Assembly (NCBI GenBank): GCA_903925075.1
Contig: CAIYDQ010000016.1
Location: 1 to 39,151 of the forward strand
DNA length: 39,151 nucleotides
Source: an uncultured Geobacter sp.
GTDB lineage: Bacteria > Desulfobacterota > Desulfuromonadia > Geobacterales > Geobacteraceae
Direction of reading: 5' to 3'
Below are positions 5,514-37,516 of this stretch, one piece after another. A program made the position numbers and the translations under genes. The notes under the pieces are model-generated. The model saw nothing but the letters and a program-made list of their open reading frames with translations, was not told the origin of the DNA and did no database searches. The number at the start of each line of letters is the position of its first letter. The first letter of the stretch is position 1.

Positions 5514-5549
5514 AGGCTCCGAAAACCATTTGCCGAGAAAGCGAAAGTC

Positions 5550-5705
5550 AAAGGCTTGAACAGGGATAAAACGAATGAAAGGGATAACCGGTCAAAATCC
5601 AAAAAAGTTTAAAGACTAAAAAGATTTTTTGGTTTACCCCAAAAGCCTTGTTTTTGCTCTCGGCAGTTATCCCCTGTATCGGTCGTATCCCTGTTAAAAG
5701 GTTTG
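5550..5705. repeat. Palindromic element, AACAGGGATA arm family, copy A
   Basis: The left arm begins AACAGGGATAAAACGAATGA at 5559, and the right arm ends with its imperfect complement at 5695; the two pair over about 31 bases. The apex holds TTTTGG-TTTACC-CCAAAA, itself a small hairpin. Copy B, with the same arms and the same centre, is at 8781-8945. The right arm runs into the end of the Nudix gene and supplies its TAA stop. Confidence 0.8.
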
Positions 5706-6137
5706 AGTCTTTGATTCCGGGAAGACTTTCGACAGTATGAAGCGGGCGCCGGCCGGCATCTTGTAATTGACCAGCTCGTCGCGTCCCACCCAGAGCGCCT
5801 CCGAGACTTCATCCCTGTTGTGCGCGACATCGCAGAAAATCGGGGTGCACAGGTAGTAGATGATGATGAAGTGGTAGTTGTCCTCGCCGGGGGTGACGTG
5901 CTCGAAGACGTCGATCAACCGCCCCACCTCGACCTCCAGCCCCACTTCCTCCCGCACCTCGCGCATCAGCGCCTGCACGATCGGCTCGCCCAGATCGATC
6001 TTGCCGCCGGGCATCACCCACTCCCCCTTAAAGGGCGGGATGTTGCGCTTGGTGAGCAGCACCTGGTCGTCGGCGTTGACGATGACGGCGACCACCGAAG
6101 TGACGATGTGACCTTTCTTGAAACCGTTTTGCTTCAT
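5694..6137 (-). CDS. Nudix hydrolase
   Basis: Nudix enzymes hydrolyse nucleoside diphosphates linked to another moiety. The 147-residue protein has a complete 23-residue Nudix box at 45-67 (G-x5-E-x7-REVREEVGL) that binds the metal and holds the catalytic glutamates, within one alpha/beta/alpha domain (VTSVVAVIVNADDQVLLTKR at the start). The exact substrate cannot be read from sequence; ADP-ribose or an oxidised nucleotide are the usual options. It lies directly downstream of argG. The ATG at 6137 has no adjacent Shine-Dalgarno, but a strong one lies beyond a perfect hairpin (see the regulatory entry). The last codons and the TAA stop lie in a repeat arm, so the C-terminal tail may have been altered by insertion. 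Confidence 0.92.
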   Translation of the reverse strand: MKQNGFKKGHIVTSVVAVIVNADDQVLLTKRNIPPFKGEWVMPGGKIDLGEPIVQALMREVREEVGLEVEVGRLIDVFEHVTPGEDNYHFIIIYYLCTPIFCDVAHNRDEVSEALWVGRDELVNYKMPAGARFILSKVFPESKTQTF

Positions 6138-7806: not shown

Positions 7807-8718
7807 TTATTTCATCAGCGTCGCCATGATCGCCTTTTGCACGTGGAGCCGGTTCTCGGCTTCGTCCCACACCGCCGAGTGCGGTCCCTCGATGACCTGG
7901 TCGCTGATCTCTTCGCCTCTATGGGCGGGGAGACAGTGCAGCACCATGGCGTTGCCTTGCGCGAGGTCGAGCAGCTCTTCGTTCAGTTGAAAGCCGACGA
8001 AGGCCTTCTCCCTGACTTTTTGTTCCTCTTCCTGTCCCATGCTGGCCCAGACGTCGGTGTTGAGCACGTCGGCGTCCTGCGCCGCCTCCTTGGGGTCGTG
8101 GGTGACGACGATCCGCGAGCCGCCCTGGGCGCGCGCCCATTCGAGCACCGCGGCGTTCGGGTCGTACCCCTCGGGGCAGGCGAGCGTCAAGTCGAAGCCG
8201 AAAATGGCCGCCGCCTCGATCCAGCTGTTGGCCATGTTGTTGCCGTCGCCGATCCAGGCGAACTTGAGCCCCTGGTAGCCCCCCTTGGCCTCGATCACGG
8301 TGAAGATGTCCGCCATGATCTGGCAGGGGTGGTGCAGGTCGGTCAAGCCGTTGATGATCGGCACCGAGGCGTATTTGGCGAATTCCTCGACCGTTTGTTG
8401 GGCGAAGGTGCGGATCATGACGCCGTCGCAGTAGCGGGCGATCACCCGGGCGCTGTCCTTGATCGGTTCGCCGCGTCCCATCTGCGAGTCCTTGCCGTTG
8501 ATGAACAGCGGGTGGCCTCCCAACTGGTACATCCCCACTTCGAAGGAGATCCTGGTGCGAGTAGAGGACTTTTCGAAGATCATCGCCAGCGTTTTCCCTT
8601 TGAGCAGGTGATGCTCGACGCCGGTCTTCTGCTTTTTCTTCAATTCCTTGGTCAGCGCGAAGATGGCGTCCAGCTCCGCTTTGGCGAACTGGCTCAGGGC
8701 GAGGAAGTCTTTTTTCAT
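7807..8718 (-). CDS. argF: Ornithine carbamoyltransferase
   Basis: ArgF makes citrulline from ornithine and carbamoyl phosphate. The 303-residue protein has all family motifs: the carbamoyl-phosphate loop SSTRTR (about 50-55), HHPCQ (about 130) and the ornithine-site HCLPAHRG (about 268). The length is typical. The ATG at 8718 gives the family N-terminus (MKKDFLALSQF); an in-frame TTG 14 codons upstream is not favoured. The Shine-Dalgarno is weak. A palindromic element fills the spacer from argD. Confidence 0.97.
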   Translation of the reverse strand: MKKDFLALSQFAKAELDAIFALTKELKKKQKTGVEHHLLKGKTLAMIFEKSSTRTRISFEVGMYQLGGHPLFINGKDSQMGRGEPIKDSARVIARYCDGVMIRTFAQQTVEEFAKYASVPIINGLTDLHHPCQIMADIFTVIEAKGGYQGLKFAWIGDGNNMANSWIEAAAIFGFDLTLACPEGYDPNAAVLEWARAQGGSRIVVTHDPKEAAQDADVLNTDVWASMGQEEEQKVREKAFVGFQLNEELLDLAQGNAMVLHCLPAHRGEEISDQVIEGPHSAVWDEAENRLHVQKAIMATLMK

Positions 8719-8780
8719 AAACAGGGATCTCACTTTACTTTTTGAGGTGAACGCGGGCAAAACAAGTCTAAAACAAAGTC

Positions 8781-8945
8781 AAAAGCTTTAACAGGGATAA
8801 AACGAATGAAGGGGATACAACTACAAAAAGATAAACCTGTAAAAGCCTAAAGACTTAAAAGATTTTTGGTTTACCCCAAAAGCTTAGATTCTAGTCTTTA
8901 GTCTTGGCCGTTATCCCTTGTATCCGTTTTATCCCTGTTAAAAGA
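8781..8945. repeat. Palindromic element, AACAGGGATA arm family, copy B
   Basis: The left arm (TTAACAGGGATAAAACGAAT from 8789) and the right arm (ending CCCTGTTAA near 8942) pair over about 33 bases with few mismatches. The centre again has GATTTTTGGTTTACCCCAAA, identical in core to copy A at 5550. It also contains AAAGCTTAGATTCTA, which recurs in the differently armed element at 37321. It fills almost the entire argD-argF spacer. Confidence 0.85.
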
Positions 8946-8952
8946 TTCTGTT

Positions 8953-10143
8953 TTACAGCTCTTCGAGAATCCCAGTGAAGATTTTCAGCATCTCGTCGGC
9001 TTCTTTTTTGCCGACGATCAGCGGCGGCACGAAGCGGAGCACCTTTTCCTGAGCGCAGTTCAAAAGCAGCCCGCGCTCGAGCGCTTTCTTGACGATGTCG
9101 GCGCCGGCTATGTTCAGTTCCACGCCGATCATCAGACCGATGCCGCGCACCTCCTTGATCGCCGGGAACTTCTGTTGCAGGGCCTCGAATTCTCCCACCA
9201 GGTACTCGCCCATCTCGCAGGTCCGGTTCAGTATCCCTTCTTCCATGATGGCGCGCACGGTGGCGATGCCGGCCGCGCAGACCAGCGGATTGCCGCCGAA
9301 GGTCGAGCCGTGGGTGCCGGGTGTGAAGGCGCCGGCCAATTCGTCGGTGGCGAGCATGGCGCCGATGGGCGCGCCGCCGGCCAGGGCCTTGGCGAGGGTC
9401 ATGATATCCGGGGTGATGCCGAAGTGCTCATGGGCGAACATCTTGCCGGTCCGCCCCATGCCGACCTGCACCTCGTCGAAGATCAGGATCAGGTTGTGCT
9501 CGTTGCAGATCTCGCGCACCGCCTGCAGATAGCCGGCGTCGGGCACCACGACCCCCCCCTCTCCCTGGATCGGTTCCAGCATCACCGCGCAGGTGCAGGG
9601 GGAGACGGCCGCGGCCAGGCTGGCCGCGTCGTTGAAGGGGACGTGGCGGAAGCCGTGCAAGAGCGGGTCGAAAAATTTCTGCACCTTCTCCTGTCCGGTG
9701 GCCGACACCGTCGCCATGGTCCGCCCGTGAAAGGAGGCGAGCGCGGTGATGATCTCGAAGCGGTCGGTGCCGTATTTCTCCCGGCTGTACTTGCGGGCCA
9801 GTTTGATGGCCGCCTCGTTCGCCTCGGCGCCCGAGTTGCAGAAGAAGGCCTTATCGGCAAAAGAGAGGCCGCACAAAAGCTCGGCGAGTTCGATCTGCTG
9901 CGGGATCTGATAATAGTTCGAACAATGGATCAGCTCCCCCGCCTGTTTGGCGAGCGCCGCCGTGACGGCGGGGTGGCAGTGTCCGAGGTTGTTGACCGCG
10001 ACCCCCGCCAGGAAGTCCAGGTACTTCTTGCCGTCCGCGTCCCAAAGGTAGCATCCCTCGCCCCTGACTGGCACCAGCGGAAACCGGCCGTAAGTCCGCA
10101 TGATGTACTTATCCGACTTTTCAATCCACGCCGATGATTTCAT
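8953..10143 (-). CDS. argD: Acetylornithine aminotransferase
   Basis: ArgD is a PLP-dependent class III aminotransferase that converts N-acetylglutamate semialdehyde to N-acetylornithine, and often also acts in lysine synthesis. The 396-residue protein has the PLP-binding pattern NSGAEANEAAIKLAR, the aspartate motif LIFDEVQVGMGRTG, and the Schiff-base lysine in TLAKALAGGAPIG. The ATG at 10143 is preferred because AGGAG lies eight bases upstream; a GTG two codons earlier is too close. It follows argB after a palindromic spacer. Confidence 0.96.
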   Translation of the reverse strand: MKSSAWIEKSDKYIMRTYGRFPLVPVRGEGCYLWDADGKKYLDFLAGVAVNNLGHCHPAVTAALAKQAGELIHCSNYYQIPQQIELAELLCGLSFADKAFFCNSGAEANEAAIKLARKYSREKYGTDRFEIITALASFHGRTMATVSATGQEKVQKFFDPLLHGFRHVPFNDAASLAAAVSPCTCAVMLEPIQGEGGVVVPDAGYLQAVREICNEHNLILIFDEVQVGMGRTGKMFAHEHFGITPDIMTLAKALAGGAPIGAMLATDELAGAFTPGTHGSTFGGNPLVCAAGIATVRAIMEEGILNRTCEMGEYLVGEFEALQQKFPAIKEVRGIGLMIGVELNIAGADIVKKALERGLLLNCAQEKVLRFVPPLIVGKKEADEMLKIFTGILEEL

Positions 10144-10167
10144 AGCCACAACTCCTATAACCCTAAC

Positions 10168-10285
10168 CCGTTCTACGTACTACGTTCTACGTTGAAAGGC
10201 TTAGAACCCGTTCCACATTCCTGTTTGAGGCTAAGATGGATGGGGCCGGTGAAGGTGTCAACGTAGAACGTAGAACGTGGAACCG
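10168..10285. repeat. Palindromic element, GTTCTAC-unit arm family, copy A
   Basis: The left arm is a run of short units (CGTTCTACGTACTACGTTCT, then ACGTTGAA) and the right arm is its complement (GTCAACGTAGAACGTAGAAC). The middle is not conserved and includes AAAGGCTTAGAACC. It lies in the argB-argD spacer. Copy B at 18151 carries another repeat inside it. Confidence 0.8.
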
Positions 10286-11272: not shown

Positions 11273-12412
11273 TCAGGCGCTGTGGCTTTCCCTGTTGGGG
11301 ATGGTGATGACGACGCGGGTGCCTTTCCCCGGCTCGCTCTCGATGCCGATGCTGCCGCCGTGCATCCTGACGAACTCGCGCGCGTAGAAGAGGCCGAGGC
11401 CGAAGCCGCGCACCTGGCCGCTGCGCTCGGCGTCCACCTGGTAGAACTTTTCGAAGACCTTGGGCAACTCGTCCGGCGCAATGCCGATCCCATCGTCCTG
11501 AACGGTTATCTGGCAGTTTTCGCCGAGGTTTCTGAGCGTGACGCAGATCCGCCCGCTTTTCTTGGAAAACTTGATGGCGTTGTCGATTACCTGCTGCAAG
11601 GCGAAACCGAATCTCTCCCGGTCGAGAAGCTGCTCGGGAACCGTCTCGAACTCGCATTGCTGGGTGAGCCCCGGTTTCTCGGCCCACTCCTTGGAACCCA
11701 TGACCGAGCGCGCCAGCATGCTGCCAAGGTCGCAGGGTTCGAGGCGAGTGCCGCCGTTGTGGTCCATGACCGAAGAAAAGGTCAAAAGGTCCGTTACCAG
11801 TCTGCCGAGATAGACCGACTCCTGGCAGACGAGCCCCAGGTTCTCCTTGGCGACGGGATCGCCGGGATCGTAGACGCCCGCGGCGAGATTCTGCAGGAAC
11901 AGCGAGATGGAGGTGATGGGAGTGCGGAACTTGTGGGAGACCAGCGACAGGAAGTTGGTCTTGAAGCGATCCAGGCTCTTCAGGTTGGCGATTTCCTCTT
12001 TCAGCGCCTTCTTGACCAGCGCCTTGTGTATCATGCTTTTCAGCTGCAGCAGGTTGGGCGGTTTGATGATGAAGTCGTCCGCGTCCGCCTGCAGCGCCTT
12101 CAGGATCAGCTCCTTGTCGGCGTAGCCGGTCATCATGATCACCACCACGGTCGGTTCGATCTCCTTGAGCTTCTTCAGGAGTTCGAGTCCGTTCAGCTTG
12201 GGCATCACCACGTCGGTGAGGATCACGTCGACGCCGCCGCCCTGGAAGATGTGCAAGGCCTCTTCGCCGTTGGCCGCCTCGACCACCCGGTAATCGGTCA
12301 GCACCTTCTTGCACAGTTCGCGGATCAGCGGTTCGTTGTCGACGATCAGGACGGTTTGACGATCCTGTTCCTGCAAAAGCGATTGCTCCGACTTTCGGCC
12401 GAGTTCGATCAT
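11273..12412 (-). CDS. Hybrid receiver-histidine kinase
   Basis: This 379-residue cytoplasmic protein has an N-terminal response-regulator receiver (about 20-135; phosphoacceptor Asp67 in VILTDVVMP, Lys117 in FIIKPP) followed by a HisKA domain with His160 and a HATPase domain (N-box [12 protein letters not shown]1 DDGIGI, G2 GFGLGL). There is no membrane segment. The H-box reads SHKFRTPI, with lysine where the usual acidic residue (HE) follows the histidine; that acidic residue normally helps phosphotransfer, so kinase output may be altered. It stands alone between alaS and argB with no adjacent output regulator. Start at 12412 with AGGAG five bases upstream. Confidence 0.9.
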
Positions 12413-12469
12413 GGCGCTCCTGGCGCTGCGGGGGATGGAGGAAGATTAAGCCAAACAGCTTCAAGGCTT

Positions 12470-12607
12470 AAAGGCTTCAACCACAGAGGTACACAGAGTC
12501 ACACAGAGGAAACCTGAAAACGGGGAAAATCAAAGTCTTTAAAACTTGAGATTGTTTTTTGGTTTTCCTCTGTGAACCTCTGAGTACCTCTGTGGTTGAA
12601 AGCTTTT
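12470..12607. repeat. Palindromic element, ACCACAGAGG arm family, copy A
   Basis: The left arm (AAAGGCTTCAACCACAGAGG, then TACACAGAGTCACACAGAGG) and the right arm (ending ACCTCTGTGGTTGAAAGCTT) pair over about 45 bases. The arms are built from units of roughly ten bases around CACAGAGG. The apex has GATTGTTTTTTGGTTTTCC, similar to the apex of the AACAGGGATA elements. A second copy is at 37321. Confidence 0.85.
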
Positions 12608-12636
12608 GTTTTTGACGTTGTTCTCAAAGATTTAAA

Positions 12637-12695: not shown

Positions 12696-15326
<2,631 letters not shown>

Positions 15327-20303: not shown

Positions 20304-20374
20304 GGTTTTCCTCTCCGGAAAAAAACAAGGAAGAAACGGAAAGCTACTACGCGCGAACGAAAACCACAACCATC

Positions 20375-20490
20375 AGCCACGGAGAAAATCTGAGGAAGTC
20401 TGAGAAACCGGTCTTTTGGTTTTAGTCTTACCCCTGGTTTCCAGTCTTTGACTGGCCGTTCTTGGATCTGCTCAGATTGTCTCCGTGGCC
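20375..20490. repeat. Palindromic element, CCACGGAG arm family
   Basis: The left arm AGCCACGGAGAAAATCTGAG (20375) pairs with the right arm ending CAGATTGTCTCCGTGG (20488). The centre has CTTTTGGTTTTAGTCTTACC, like the centres of the AACAGGGATA and ACCACAGAGG elements. It occupies the spacer between cinA and the kinase gene, almost touching the cinA stop. Confidence 0.75.
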
Positions 20491-20497
20491 AACGGTT

Positions 20498-21733
20498 CTA
20501 ATCTTTCGCGCCGAGGGTGAGCAGATGTTTGCGCAGCCAGTCGAGGGCGGTGAAGCAGGTGATCGACCTGACGGCGGCGCGGTCCCCGAGGAAGTGGTAG
20601 CCGTTTACCCGGCAGCCGTCGGCGTCGGCCAGGGCCACGAAGACGGTGCCGACCGGCTTCTCCGGCGTGCCGCCGTCGGGGCCGGCGATGCCGGTGACGG
20701 ACAGGGCCAGATCGCTCCCCGCCGCGCGCCGTGCCCCGCTGGCCATGGCGCTGGCCACCTCGGCGCTGACCGCGCCCCTGGAGGCGATCAACTCGGCCGG
20801 CACCTGCAGCATCCTGGTCTTGGCCTCGTTGCTGTAGGTGACGTTTCCCTCCAGAAAATAGCCGGAACTGCCGGGCTCGGCAGTGATGCGCGCCGCTATC
20901 ATGCCGCCGGTGCAGGACTCGGCCAGGGCCAGGGTCAGCCCGCTCCCCTTCAGCAGAGCGGCCAGCGCGCGGTCCATGGTTTGCTCCCCCTCGGCGAAGA
21001 CGAATTCCGCGAGCCTTTCCCGGACCGCGGCCGCCGCCGCTTGCAGCGACTGCTCGTGCCGCGCCAGGCTGCGCAGGATCAGGTGGATCTCCGGGAACTT
21101 GACGCAGTAAGCGAGCTCGACCGGGGACCCTTCGGGGAGGCATCCCTCAAGCGTGGCGGCGACGGCCGCCTCGGAGACGCCGAACAGCTTCAGCACCACG
21201 CGCAGGCGCGCCTCCCGTCCCGGCGCGGCCAGCGCGGGGAGCACCGTCTCCTCCAGCATCCGCTCCATCTCGGAGGGGACGCCGGGGAGAAAGAACAGCC
21301 GGGCCGAGCCGAGCTTCAGTATGAAGCCGCAGGCGGTGCCGACCGGATTGGGAATCAGCTCGCTCCCCGCCGGGACCAGCGCCTGCCTCCGGTTGGCGGG
21401 ATGCAGCCCGCCGGGAAGGCGCTCGGCGAAGCTTGCCAGGTGCGCCAGGGCCTCTTGGGAGAGTTCCAGTTCCCGTCCCGCGGCCTGCGCGGCGGCCGCC
21501 GCGGTCAGATCGTCGGGCGTTGGGCCGAGCCCGCCGGTGACGATGACGGCGTCGCTGTCGATGGAGAGCTCCTCCAGCGCCAGCACGATCGCGTCCTCGC
21601 GGTCCCCCACCGTCAGGTGCCGCCGCACCCGCGCTCCCAGGTCGTAGAGTTTGCCGGCGATGTGGGAGGCGTTGGTGTCGACCACCTCGCCGCAGATCAG
21701 TTCGTCCCCTATGGAGAGCGTCGATATCTTCAT
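20498..21733 (-). CDS. cinA: CinA-like protein (NMN amidohydrolase, two-domain)
   Basis: The 411-residue protein has the standard two-domain form: an N-terminal MoCF/COG1058 domain (1-170; IGDELICGEVVDTN, VTGGLGPTPDD, FFLPGVPSEM) and a C-terminal PncC domain (about 255-411; LALAESCTGGMIAARIT, SVTGIAGPDGGTPEKPVGTVF). The C-terminal domain deamidates nicotinamide mononucleotide to nicotinic acid mononucleotide in NAD recycling; the N-terminal domain of some members is an ADP-ribose pyrophosphatase. The start overlaps the pgpA stop by ATGA, making it the last gene of a six-gene operon that also contains larB, whose substrate is nicotinic acid adenine dinucleotide. Confidence 0.93.
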   Translation of the reverse strand: MKISTLSIGDELICGEVVDTNASHIAGKLYDLGARVRRHLTVGDREDAIVLALEELSIDSDAVIVTGGLGPTPDDLTAAAAAQAAGRELELSQEALAHLASFAERLPGGLHPANRRQALVPAGSELIPNPVGTACGFILKLGSARLFFLPGVPSEMERMLEETVLPALAAPGREARLRVVLKLFGVSEAAVAATLEGCLPEGSPVELAYCVKFPEIHLILRSLARHEQSLQAAAAAVRERLAEFVFAEGEQTMDRALAALLKGSGLTLALAESCTGGMIAARITAEPGSSGYFLEGNVTYSNEAKTRMLQVPAELIASRGAVSAEVASAMASGARRAAGSDLALSVTGIAGPDGGTPEKPVGTVFVALADADGCRVNGYHFLGDRAAVRSITCFTALDWLRKHLLTLGAKD

Positions 21734-26157: not shown

Positions 26158-26327
26158 GGCACTGCCGTTAAGTTAAGGATTGGGTGAGTCCAAAAGCCAC
26201 CTCTCCCTTGATGGGAGAGGGTTGGGGAGAGGGTGAAAAGCTCGCCAAAGCTCTCCCTCCCCCCGACCCCCTCCCATAAAGGGAGGGGGAGAACTACTAA
26301 GGCCGAGCTTAACTTGACGGCAGTGCC
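26158..26327. repeat. 170-bp palindromic element with GGCACTGCCGTTAAGTTAAG ends
   Basis: The outer inverted repeat (GGCACTGCCGTTAAGTTAAG at 26158 and its complement at 26308-26327, one mismatch) encloses a second, diverged inverted repeat of CTCCCTT-ATGGGAGAGGGTTG type (about 26200-26240 and 26250-26295). The inner part resembles a G/C-rich CCCTCTCCC..GGGAGAGGG repeat. No coding capacity. Confidence 0.8.
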
Positions 26328-37169: not shown

Positions 37170-37516
37170 GTTCACCCCTATGGAAATTATGGAACTATTA
37201 AATAAATAGCAGTAGTTGAAACTAAAGAGAAAGGATTAGCCGCAGAAGGAGCAGAGAGGAAAGCCGAAAAGCTTCAACAACGGAGGTGCACGGCACAGAA
37301 GGGAAACATCGAAAAGATTCAACCACAGAGGTACACAGAGTCACACAGAGGAGATCTAAAAAACAGAATCATCAGGTTTAAAGCTTAGATTCTATCCGCT
37401 GAGTCCAGTCGTTGTTTAGCCTTATATATCCGCTTAGCTTGGTTGTTGATTTCCCCGCGTTGGTTTCCTCTGAGTACCTCTGTGTACCTCTGTGGTGAGC
37501 GCCTTGCTTGTCCGGT
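37170..37516. other. Gene-free spacer filled with repeat arms
   Basis: No gene is present in these 347 bases. A short AT-rich stretch next to metH may hold its promoter, but no convincing -35/-10 pair was found. The rest, 37237-37499, consists of stacked repeat arms described separately. Confidence 0.6.
37237..37499. repeat. Stacked repeat arms and ACCACAGAGG palindrome, copy B
   Basis: Three related left arms stand in a row: AGCCGCAGAAGGAGCAGAGA (37240), TCAACAACGGAGGTGCACGG (37274) and TTCAACCACAGAGGTACACA (37319). The third pairs with the right arm ending GTGTACCTCTGTGGTG at 37498, forming a full palindrome like that at 12470. Its centre has AAAGCTTAGATTCTA, shared with the AACAGGGATA element at 8781. 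The first two arms have no partner. Confidence 0.75.

Follow-up and report, generated by a model that had tools for sequence, protein, structure and literature searches.

Gene-less palindromes in a Geobacter genome as candidate mobile elements linked to GxxExxY nuclease genes

Results

A 39,151-bp stretch from an uncultured Geobacter sp. (GenBank assembly GCA_903925075.1, contig CAIYDQ010000016.1, positions 1 to 39,151, forward strand; hereafter the window) carries near-complete palindromes with inverted arms at five places, E1 to E5. The palindrome in focus, E2, occupies the spacer between two co-directional genes, argF-like (7807-8760, minus strand) and argD-like (8953-10149, minus strand). 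Each arm is made up of two to three head-to-tail copies of one 9-10 bp word, and the words fall into sets A (AACAGGGAT, AAAACGGAT, ACAGGGGAT), B (ACCACAGAGG, TACACAGAGT, CACACAGAGG), and C (GCCACGGAG, AAAATCTGAG). The original prediction, made from the letters of the window, that five palindromes carry three sets of arms was borne out by arm complementarity and sequence, as was its claim that their centers are alike. A 15-mer, AAAGCTTAGATTCTA, is identical at 8879-8893 in E2 and 37380-37394 in E5 despite their different arms, a TTTTGGTTT-type apex recurs in four of the five, and the outer boxes are partly shared. Arms of this build also enclose genes encoding GxxExxY proteins, on which our interpretation of the palindromes turns.

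All three GxxExxY (PDDEXK_3) genes of the host genome were located between inverted arms, one with A arms (contig C283), one with the word GGCCACAAAAAGGCAC (C261), and one with a different 30-base repeat (C29). With relatives included, inverted arms were found at 28 of 30 tested GxxExxY loci (27 from relatives, 3 from the host genome) versus 0 of 60 controls; loci were fetched as best-scoring matches, and 30 of 32 GxxExxY and 26 of 30 TIGR02436 loci were testable. In a set of named loci from many phyla, including Methanosarcinales, which comprised 80 loci, the best among 191 matches to a single query, less 3 too close to contig ends, the 350-base flanks of the gene matched each other in inverted orientation in 57 of 77 cases at a score of at least 30, compared with 2 of 392 shifted positions. 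At score 40, there were 33 such loci and one control match, the latter 2.2 kb from the gene in L120. The best arm period was 8 to 11 bases in 149 of the 154 arms of GxxExxY loci (arms of at least 24 bases, loci at score of at least 30). The C29 gene (L074) lies among inverted copies of its 30-base repeat (TCTAGAGAGCGAAGCGAACGGGCGGTAGA), with no short words.

Gene-bearing elements with A arms were present on C283 and in the congeners G001, G002, G003, G005, and G012, those with B arms in G015, G017, and G006 (score 29, just below threshold), and those with C arms in G005 and G018. The A word was also found in Geomonas anaerohicana, an acidobacterium, and a planctomycete, in agreement with the earlier expectation that the arms recur in other genomes, and GxxExxY proteins were encoded by 50 of the 58 genomes searched at genus, family, and order level (host genome included) as well as in many phyla. 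The left subterminal stretch of the C283 element matched 15 of 17 gene-less A centers at z>3 and the right stretch 5 of 17, and about half of the other centers matched at z>2 (9 and 8 of 18 for B, 14 and 12 of 25 for C). Hence, gene-bearing and gene-less forms have more than their arms in common, most clearly in class A.

Assignment of the linked gene to the GxxExxY/PDDEXK_3 family was based on profile matches and a conserved active site (D, E-x-K, QxxxY). The TIGR04256 profile scored 131.8 and 151.7 bits against the two proteins scanned (cut-off 35), and the products of all three genes exceeded the PF13366 cut-off. Among 35 aligned members, G27, E30, Y33, D69, E79, Q93, and Y97 were invariant and K81 was retained in at least 90%; we take these residues to be the PD-(D/E)XK site plus the QxxxY motif of RecB/Cas4-type nucleases. 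An AlphaFold model of a GxxExxY protein (pLDDT 87.7, pTM 0.80) was closest in fold to SSO0001 (4ic1; E 1.6e-4), presumably a member of the Cas4 family, and to lambda exonuclease, and a sequence search returned no solved structure as a clear relative (best E 0.1).

Arm word and nuclease lineage were linked. Across 79 loci, being those of 106 entered that passed arm-score and stop filters (L134 was not among the entered), protein identity correlated with arm similarity (Mantel rho 0.30, 0 of 1000 permutations), and arms matched at a score of at least 36 in 61% of pairs with at least 70% protein identity versus at most 2% of pairs below 45%. When mapped on the tree of 95 proteins, word labels required 32 changes against a shuffled mean of 59.7 (minimum 53 of 300), and the final base of the word only 8 against 34.8 (0 of 200 as low). 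Words ending in G characterized 25 of 25 classified rows in a 26-row group set apart by a branch with a support of 99, compared with 2 of 62 outside it. Word labels covered 78 of the 95 rows, the final base of a further 9 having been set by eye.

The same linkage was evident at a single orthologous spacer, where word and protein clade switched together across 12 Geomonas genomes. In five (G007, G010, G013, G015, and G017), the gene belonged to clade II and had CGCAAAG arms, and in seven (G001, G002, G003, G005, G011, G012, and G014), it belonged to clade I and had arms of AACAGGGAT type; the proteins in the pairs compared were 77 to 96% identical within and 35 to 43% between clades. G006 and G009 harbored a gene-less CGGAT palindrome with a leftover CGCAAAG arm, G008 a single GGGAT arm, and G004 nothing recognizable; the locus was not seen in G018. 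These contents indicate that arms and gene change as one cassette. In G016, the spacer (L325) holds one left and several right GGGAT arms in a row, without a gene. The host genome has two versions of this hot spot (L322 on C231 and L323 on C197), one bare and one with a B-type palindrome. The host assembly, at 6.55 Mb compared with 4.5 to 5.4 Mb in congeners and with 2.68% contamination, may hold a duplication or a second strain.

Spacers orthologous to those of E1 to E4 also differed between species. The A, B, or C arm pair of the window was present in 0 of 71 such congener spacers, G008 and G014 each showing a single loose match, and several of these spacers carried palindromes armed with other words instead. 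The spacer of E1 contains palindromes with other words (TTGACAAT, CGCAAAG, GATTAAG) in G001 to G018 (L248 to L265), a hot spot for different element families.

Across the host genome, matches to the arm sets with up to three mismatches numbered 46 (A), 52 (B), and 82 (C) versus none for reversed control patterns; nine of the B matches lay in a single tandem array at one contig end (C333). From 65 arm pairs in the loci retrieved we kept 60 gene-less palindromes of 88 to 302 bp (17 A, 18 B, and 25 C). The five removed were L087 and L018 (chance or chained pairs), L096 (another word), L207 (43 bp), and L075, which bears a gene, so that 60 gene-less copies stood against one gene-bearing copy. Three C-class palindromes (L210, 583-823; L215, 508-810; L216, 555-780) hold a nested second palindrome with another word of CACGGAGGCAC or GCCACAAAAAGGCAC type.

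In these 60 copies, the arm-trimmed centers shared more 10-mers across classes than dinucleotide shuffles did, with 204 versus 32 for A-C, 104 versus 25 for A-B, and 96 versus 37 for B-C. Their likeness thus exceeds that of shuffled sequence, and the excess was highest for A-C and lowest for B-C (12-mers 10 versus 3.7, z 1.6). Sharing was nonetheless greater within than between classes, at 0.30 in A versus 0.18 (with C) and 0.05 (with B), 0.114 in B versus 0.045 to 0.058, and 0.087 in C versus 0.028 to 0.067. The two arms of one element were no more alike than arms from different copies. Homogenization of arms in cis was accordingly rejected, cis similarity being below trans in A and B and matched or exceeded by 782 of 2000 permutations in C, and with it the earlier suggestion that arms diverge in concert.

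Two kinds of scaffold word accompanied the arms. Inside the copies, AAARNCTT words were enriched in A and C and less so in B, and they were also enriched immediately outside the arms of A and B; GGTTTAACC-type words were enriched inside A and C copies. Both were rare 150 to 400 bases away. The patterns were chosen after inspecting the host copies, and only the outside groups provide independent observations. Beside gene-bearing Geomonas elements, AAARNCTT was enriched 5.5-fold (26 occurrences) and the GGTTTAACC type 17-fold (5 occurrences); in elements of the same order or family, AAARNCTT was enriched 3.0-fold and the GGTTTAACC type was absent. In distant GxxExxY elements, AAARNCTT occurred at 1.0 times expectation (25 occurrences) and the GGTTTAACC type was fivefold enriched with just 3 occurrences. 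The A-armed elements outside Geomonas, a group of two loci, had neither word.

A parallel organization was found for an unrelated protein. TIGR02436 (S23-type, four-helix-bundle) genes of relatives had inverted arms at 19 of 26 loci versus 0 of 52 controls, their arm words were heptamers (period 7 or 14 in 34 of 36 arms), and word and protein were again linked (rho 0.39, 0 of 1000 permutations; 24 loci at score of at least 24). In Coxiella, PMC4990558 describes a 23S rRNA intervening sequence that carries an S23 open reading frame (ORF) along with terminal inverted repeats and heptamers in two to three tandem copies, features that fit the plan of the TIGR02436 palindromes. As candidates in the host genome, four weak PF05635 matches fell under the cut-off, and an inverted-seed scan recovered no word arms at them.

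The coordinates of the window palindromes are given in Table 1. A whole-window scan (score of at least 34; maximum in shuffles 32) recovered E2, E3, E5, and, exactly at 34, E4; E1 was under the threshold, and two additional palindromes were detected. That at 26158-26327 resembles the class 4 (CCYTC) repeats of G. metallireducens. E3 separates the 3' end of an alanyl-tRNA synthetase gene (12696-15326, minus strand) from the start of a kinase/response-regulator gene (11273-12412, minus strand), and E4 adjoins the 3' end of a cinA-like gene (20498-21733, minus strand).

Table 1. Palindromes of the 39,151-bp window. The coordinates first given for the elements (e.g., 8781) take in the outer AAAAGCTTT box.
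Element	Coordinates	Class	Arms	Arm complementarity	Further features
E1	5548-5706	A	5548-5588 and 5666-5706 (41 bases)	73%	gene-less; arm word AACAGGGAT; center with GATTTTTTGGTTTACCCC
E2 (focal)	8781-8945	A	8787-8817 and 8912-8942	87%	outer box AAAAGCTTT at 8781-8789; center 8818-8911
E3	12454-12622	B	12454-12520 and 12556-12622	76%	about three ACCACAGAGG-type words per arm at 12480-12510 and 12567-12596; outer AAAGGCTT
E4	20368-20497	C (GCCACGGAGAAAATCTGAG)	20368-20406 and 20459-20497	77%	
E5	37322-37496	B	37322-37352 and 37466-37496	90%	
Sixth palindrome	10170-10283				heptamer word ACGTAGA in both arms; 7-base period as in four-helix-bundle-type elements
Further palindrome	26158-26327				CCCTCTCC type

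Discussion

With moderate confidence, we regard the window palindromes as gene-less copies, similar to miniature inverted-repeat transposable elements (MITEs), of small palindromic mobile elements that are moved by a word-specific, Cas4-like nuclease. The full form of such an element would span about 0.5 to 0.6 kb and consist of an outer AAARGCTTT box, an arm with its 9-10 bp word in two to three tandem copies, a portion of the center, the nuclease gene, the remainder of the center, and the inverted arm, its one gene encoding a GxxExxY PD-(D/E)XK, Cas4/RecB-like nuclease. We infer that this nuclease binds its own word, which is offered about once per helical turn in both arms, and cleaves the arms, probably at moments when the palindrome has been extruded or a replication fork exposes it as a single strand. 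Host repair would then copy the element into AT-rich intergenic spacers, and gene-less copies would be moved in trans. On the best reading of the sequences, each nuclease lineage has its own word, and the three arm sets of the window would represent copies of three nuclease lineages. A bolder and more tentative proposal, which we think possible but would not yet favor, is that this constitutes a new transposition system, in which a Cas4-like nuclease of about 130 residues, recognizing an evolvable 9-10 bp word present two to three times in each arm, would be the sole element-encoded protein needed for palindromes to spread in bacteria and archaea. Word and nuclease would coevolve as lock and key, the host lineage would set the scaffold, and S23-type proteins would run an independent heptamer version.

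Several observations weigh against mobilization by the nuclease. No clean new insertion was found in 17 kb of synteny across 18 congeners (51 indel events), nor among the 19 events between two species compared along 180 kb (130.6 kb of it aligned, at 95.7% identity), 6 of which exceeded 1.5 kb and were left aside, and neither comparison nor the host copies revealed a target-site duplication. At 61 host copies, direct repeats beside the arms equaled those of mismatched pairs (3.25 versus 3.33 in 12 bp), and 22 of 200 permutations gave as many in the surrounding 45 bp, where the true ends may lie outside the stretch used; the duplications that the original prediction proposed to look for were thus not apparent. 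The lack of clean insertions and of duplications speaks against an ordinary DDE transposon. In addition, 20 of the 77 named loci had no arms at score 30, and no gene-bearing B or C copy exists in the host genome. The protein tree has few columns and many open forks, the GCAAAG word occurs with two separate protein subclades, contrary to a strict one-to-one rule, and the linkage of word and protein may reflect joint inheritance and not recognition. Indels in the 17-kb region with a palindrome score of at least 36 were all of CCCTCTCC type. Between L327 to L335 and L336 to L344, about 1.4 kb of G015 is missing in G006 between CACAGAGG arms, as if the arms had recombined.

The absence of any transposase-typical duplication would be expected if the gene were a passenger or helper, a tolerated or self-serving loop insert in palindromes moved by host machinery such as hairpin recombination, a polymerase, or a reverse transcriptase. 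The occurrence of the unrelated TIGR02436 four-helix bundle in palindromes of the same plan leaves room for such a shared host mechanism, and an arm-bounded length difference is visible between two congeners. If the gene were a passenger, however, one would not expect a shared word even at the level of deep clades, and the word periods differ sharply between the GxxExxY and TIGR02436 families. We consider this explanation unlikely, if credible. We give a lower probability still to elements that act as RNA, either as transcribed hairpins that are processed or by stabilizing or terminating messages, in the manner of 23S rRNA intervening sequences. Folding of E2 (-59 kcal/mol, z -7.35) and E3 (z -11.7) is indeed stable, E2 lies between genes read in the same direction, and the Coxiella sequence (PMC4990558) has tandem heptamers and terminal inverted repeats besides its S23p ORF. 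Yet fold stability follows from the palindrome alone, the arm pairs of the window are missing from orthologous spacers of congeners, and arms within one host copy do not match in cis.

Arm exchange by recombination between elements on one shared host scaffold, close to what the original prediction envisaged, would account for the outer and central words common to Geomonas arm classes and largely lacking from distant elements and the two foreign A-armed elements, for the 15-mer shared by E2 and E5, and for nested elements. At the hot-spot spacer, by contrast, whole cassettes and not arms differ, and centers keep a class-specific signal; we consider exchange very improbable. The idea of one superfamily with variable arms on a partly shared scaffold holds up, while that of free arm swapping does not, because the word travels with its nuclease clade and whole cassettes replace each other. 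A form of modularity may nevertheless survive in element parts with different histories, as center and outer boxes seem to follow the host genus and arms the nuclease, two separate inheritances. The least probable alternative is that each arm serves as a binding site for IHF/HU or another nucleoid protein or global regulator. This has been proposed for paired sites in Geobacter metallireducens, where Aklujkar (2009) describes sites of three to five tandem 7-9 base repeats, mostly in opposite-strand pairs. What the word tracks is a linked nuclease lineage and no conserved host protein, a single genome contains many words side by side, and gene-bearing forms extend across many phyla.

On the nuclease-based reading, the elements hint at a little-studied kind of selfish DNA in many bacterial phyla. 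Should GxxExxY proteins prove to be word-specific nucleases, many intergenic repeats that now lack an explanation could be read as families of elements, each assigned to its enzyme, and the pairs of word and protein would offer natural data on the evolution of DNA specificity. An old puzzle about the paired multicopy repeats in Geobacteraceae and about how intervening sequences with S23 arose would become a test-tube question. The literature searched contained no paper tying such repeats to GxxExxY genes and no function for GxxExxY proteins.

Among known systems, the multicopy sites of Geobacter are the closest in appearance. The sections of the 2009 G. metallireducens report used here (PMC2700814) describe paired opposite-strand tandem-repeat sites, classes 1 to 3, as predicted binding sites of global regulators, and those of the 2010 G. 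bemidjiensis report (PMC2996986) place multicopy sequences in 12% of intergenic regions. Like our elements, these are short tandem repeats, mostly in opposite-strand pairs, of several families, largely intergenic, and often several to a spacer, and class 2 of G. metallireducens, three copies of TCTCCGTS[Y], resembles the CACGGAGA word. Unlike our elements, they are interpreted in those sections as IHF/HU-type sites, with no link drawn there to a nuclease gene, mobility, or covariation of protein and word. The 23S rRNA intervening sequences share a long stem of inverted ends, a single ORF of about 120 codons inside, tandem heptamers, and, in PMC4990558, the epithet selfish. They differ in residing in rRNA genes, in their excision from RNA by RNase III, in their protein, and in having 7-base and not 9-10-base words, whereas the window copies lie in spacers beside protein genes.

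In the REPIN/RAYT system, many palindromic units without a gene depend on one protein that acts on them in trans; it is present in single copy and is a Y1 (HUH) transposase. The likeness to our gene-less palindromes ends at that enzyme. As a candidate driver in the host genome, RAYT was rejected, its one Y1_Tnp gene having 0 of 6 tested arm words in the 2.3 kb around it. The Chunjie MITE of Geobacter uraniireducens, as portrayed in PMC10969869, is likewise short, present in many copies between genes, and bounded by inverted ends, but combines terminal with direct repeats, whereas the window elements have no direct repeats beyond chance. With MITEs in general, our elements share terminal inverted repeats and numerous short gene-less copies, but not a target-site duplication. 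Classical MITEs depend on a DDE transposase; here full-length relatives exist as well, and the protein that they encode, with a putative role in mobility, is a PD-(D/E)XK nuclease.
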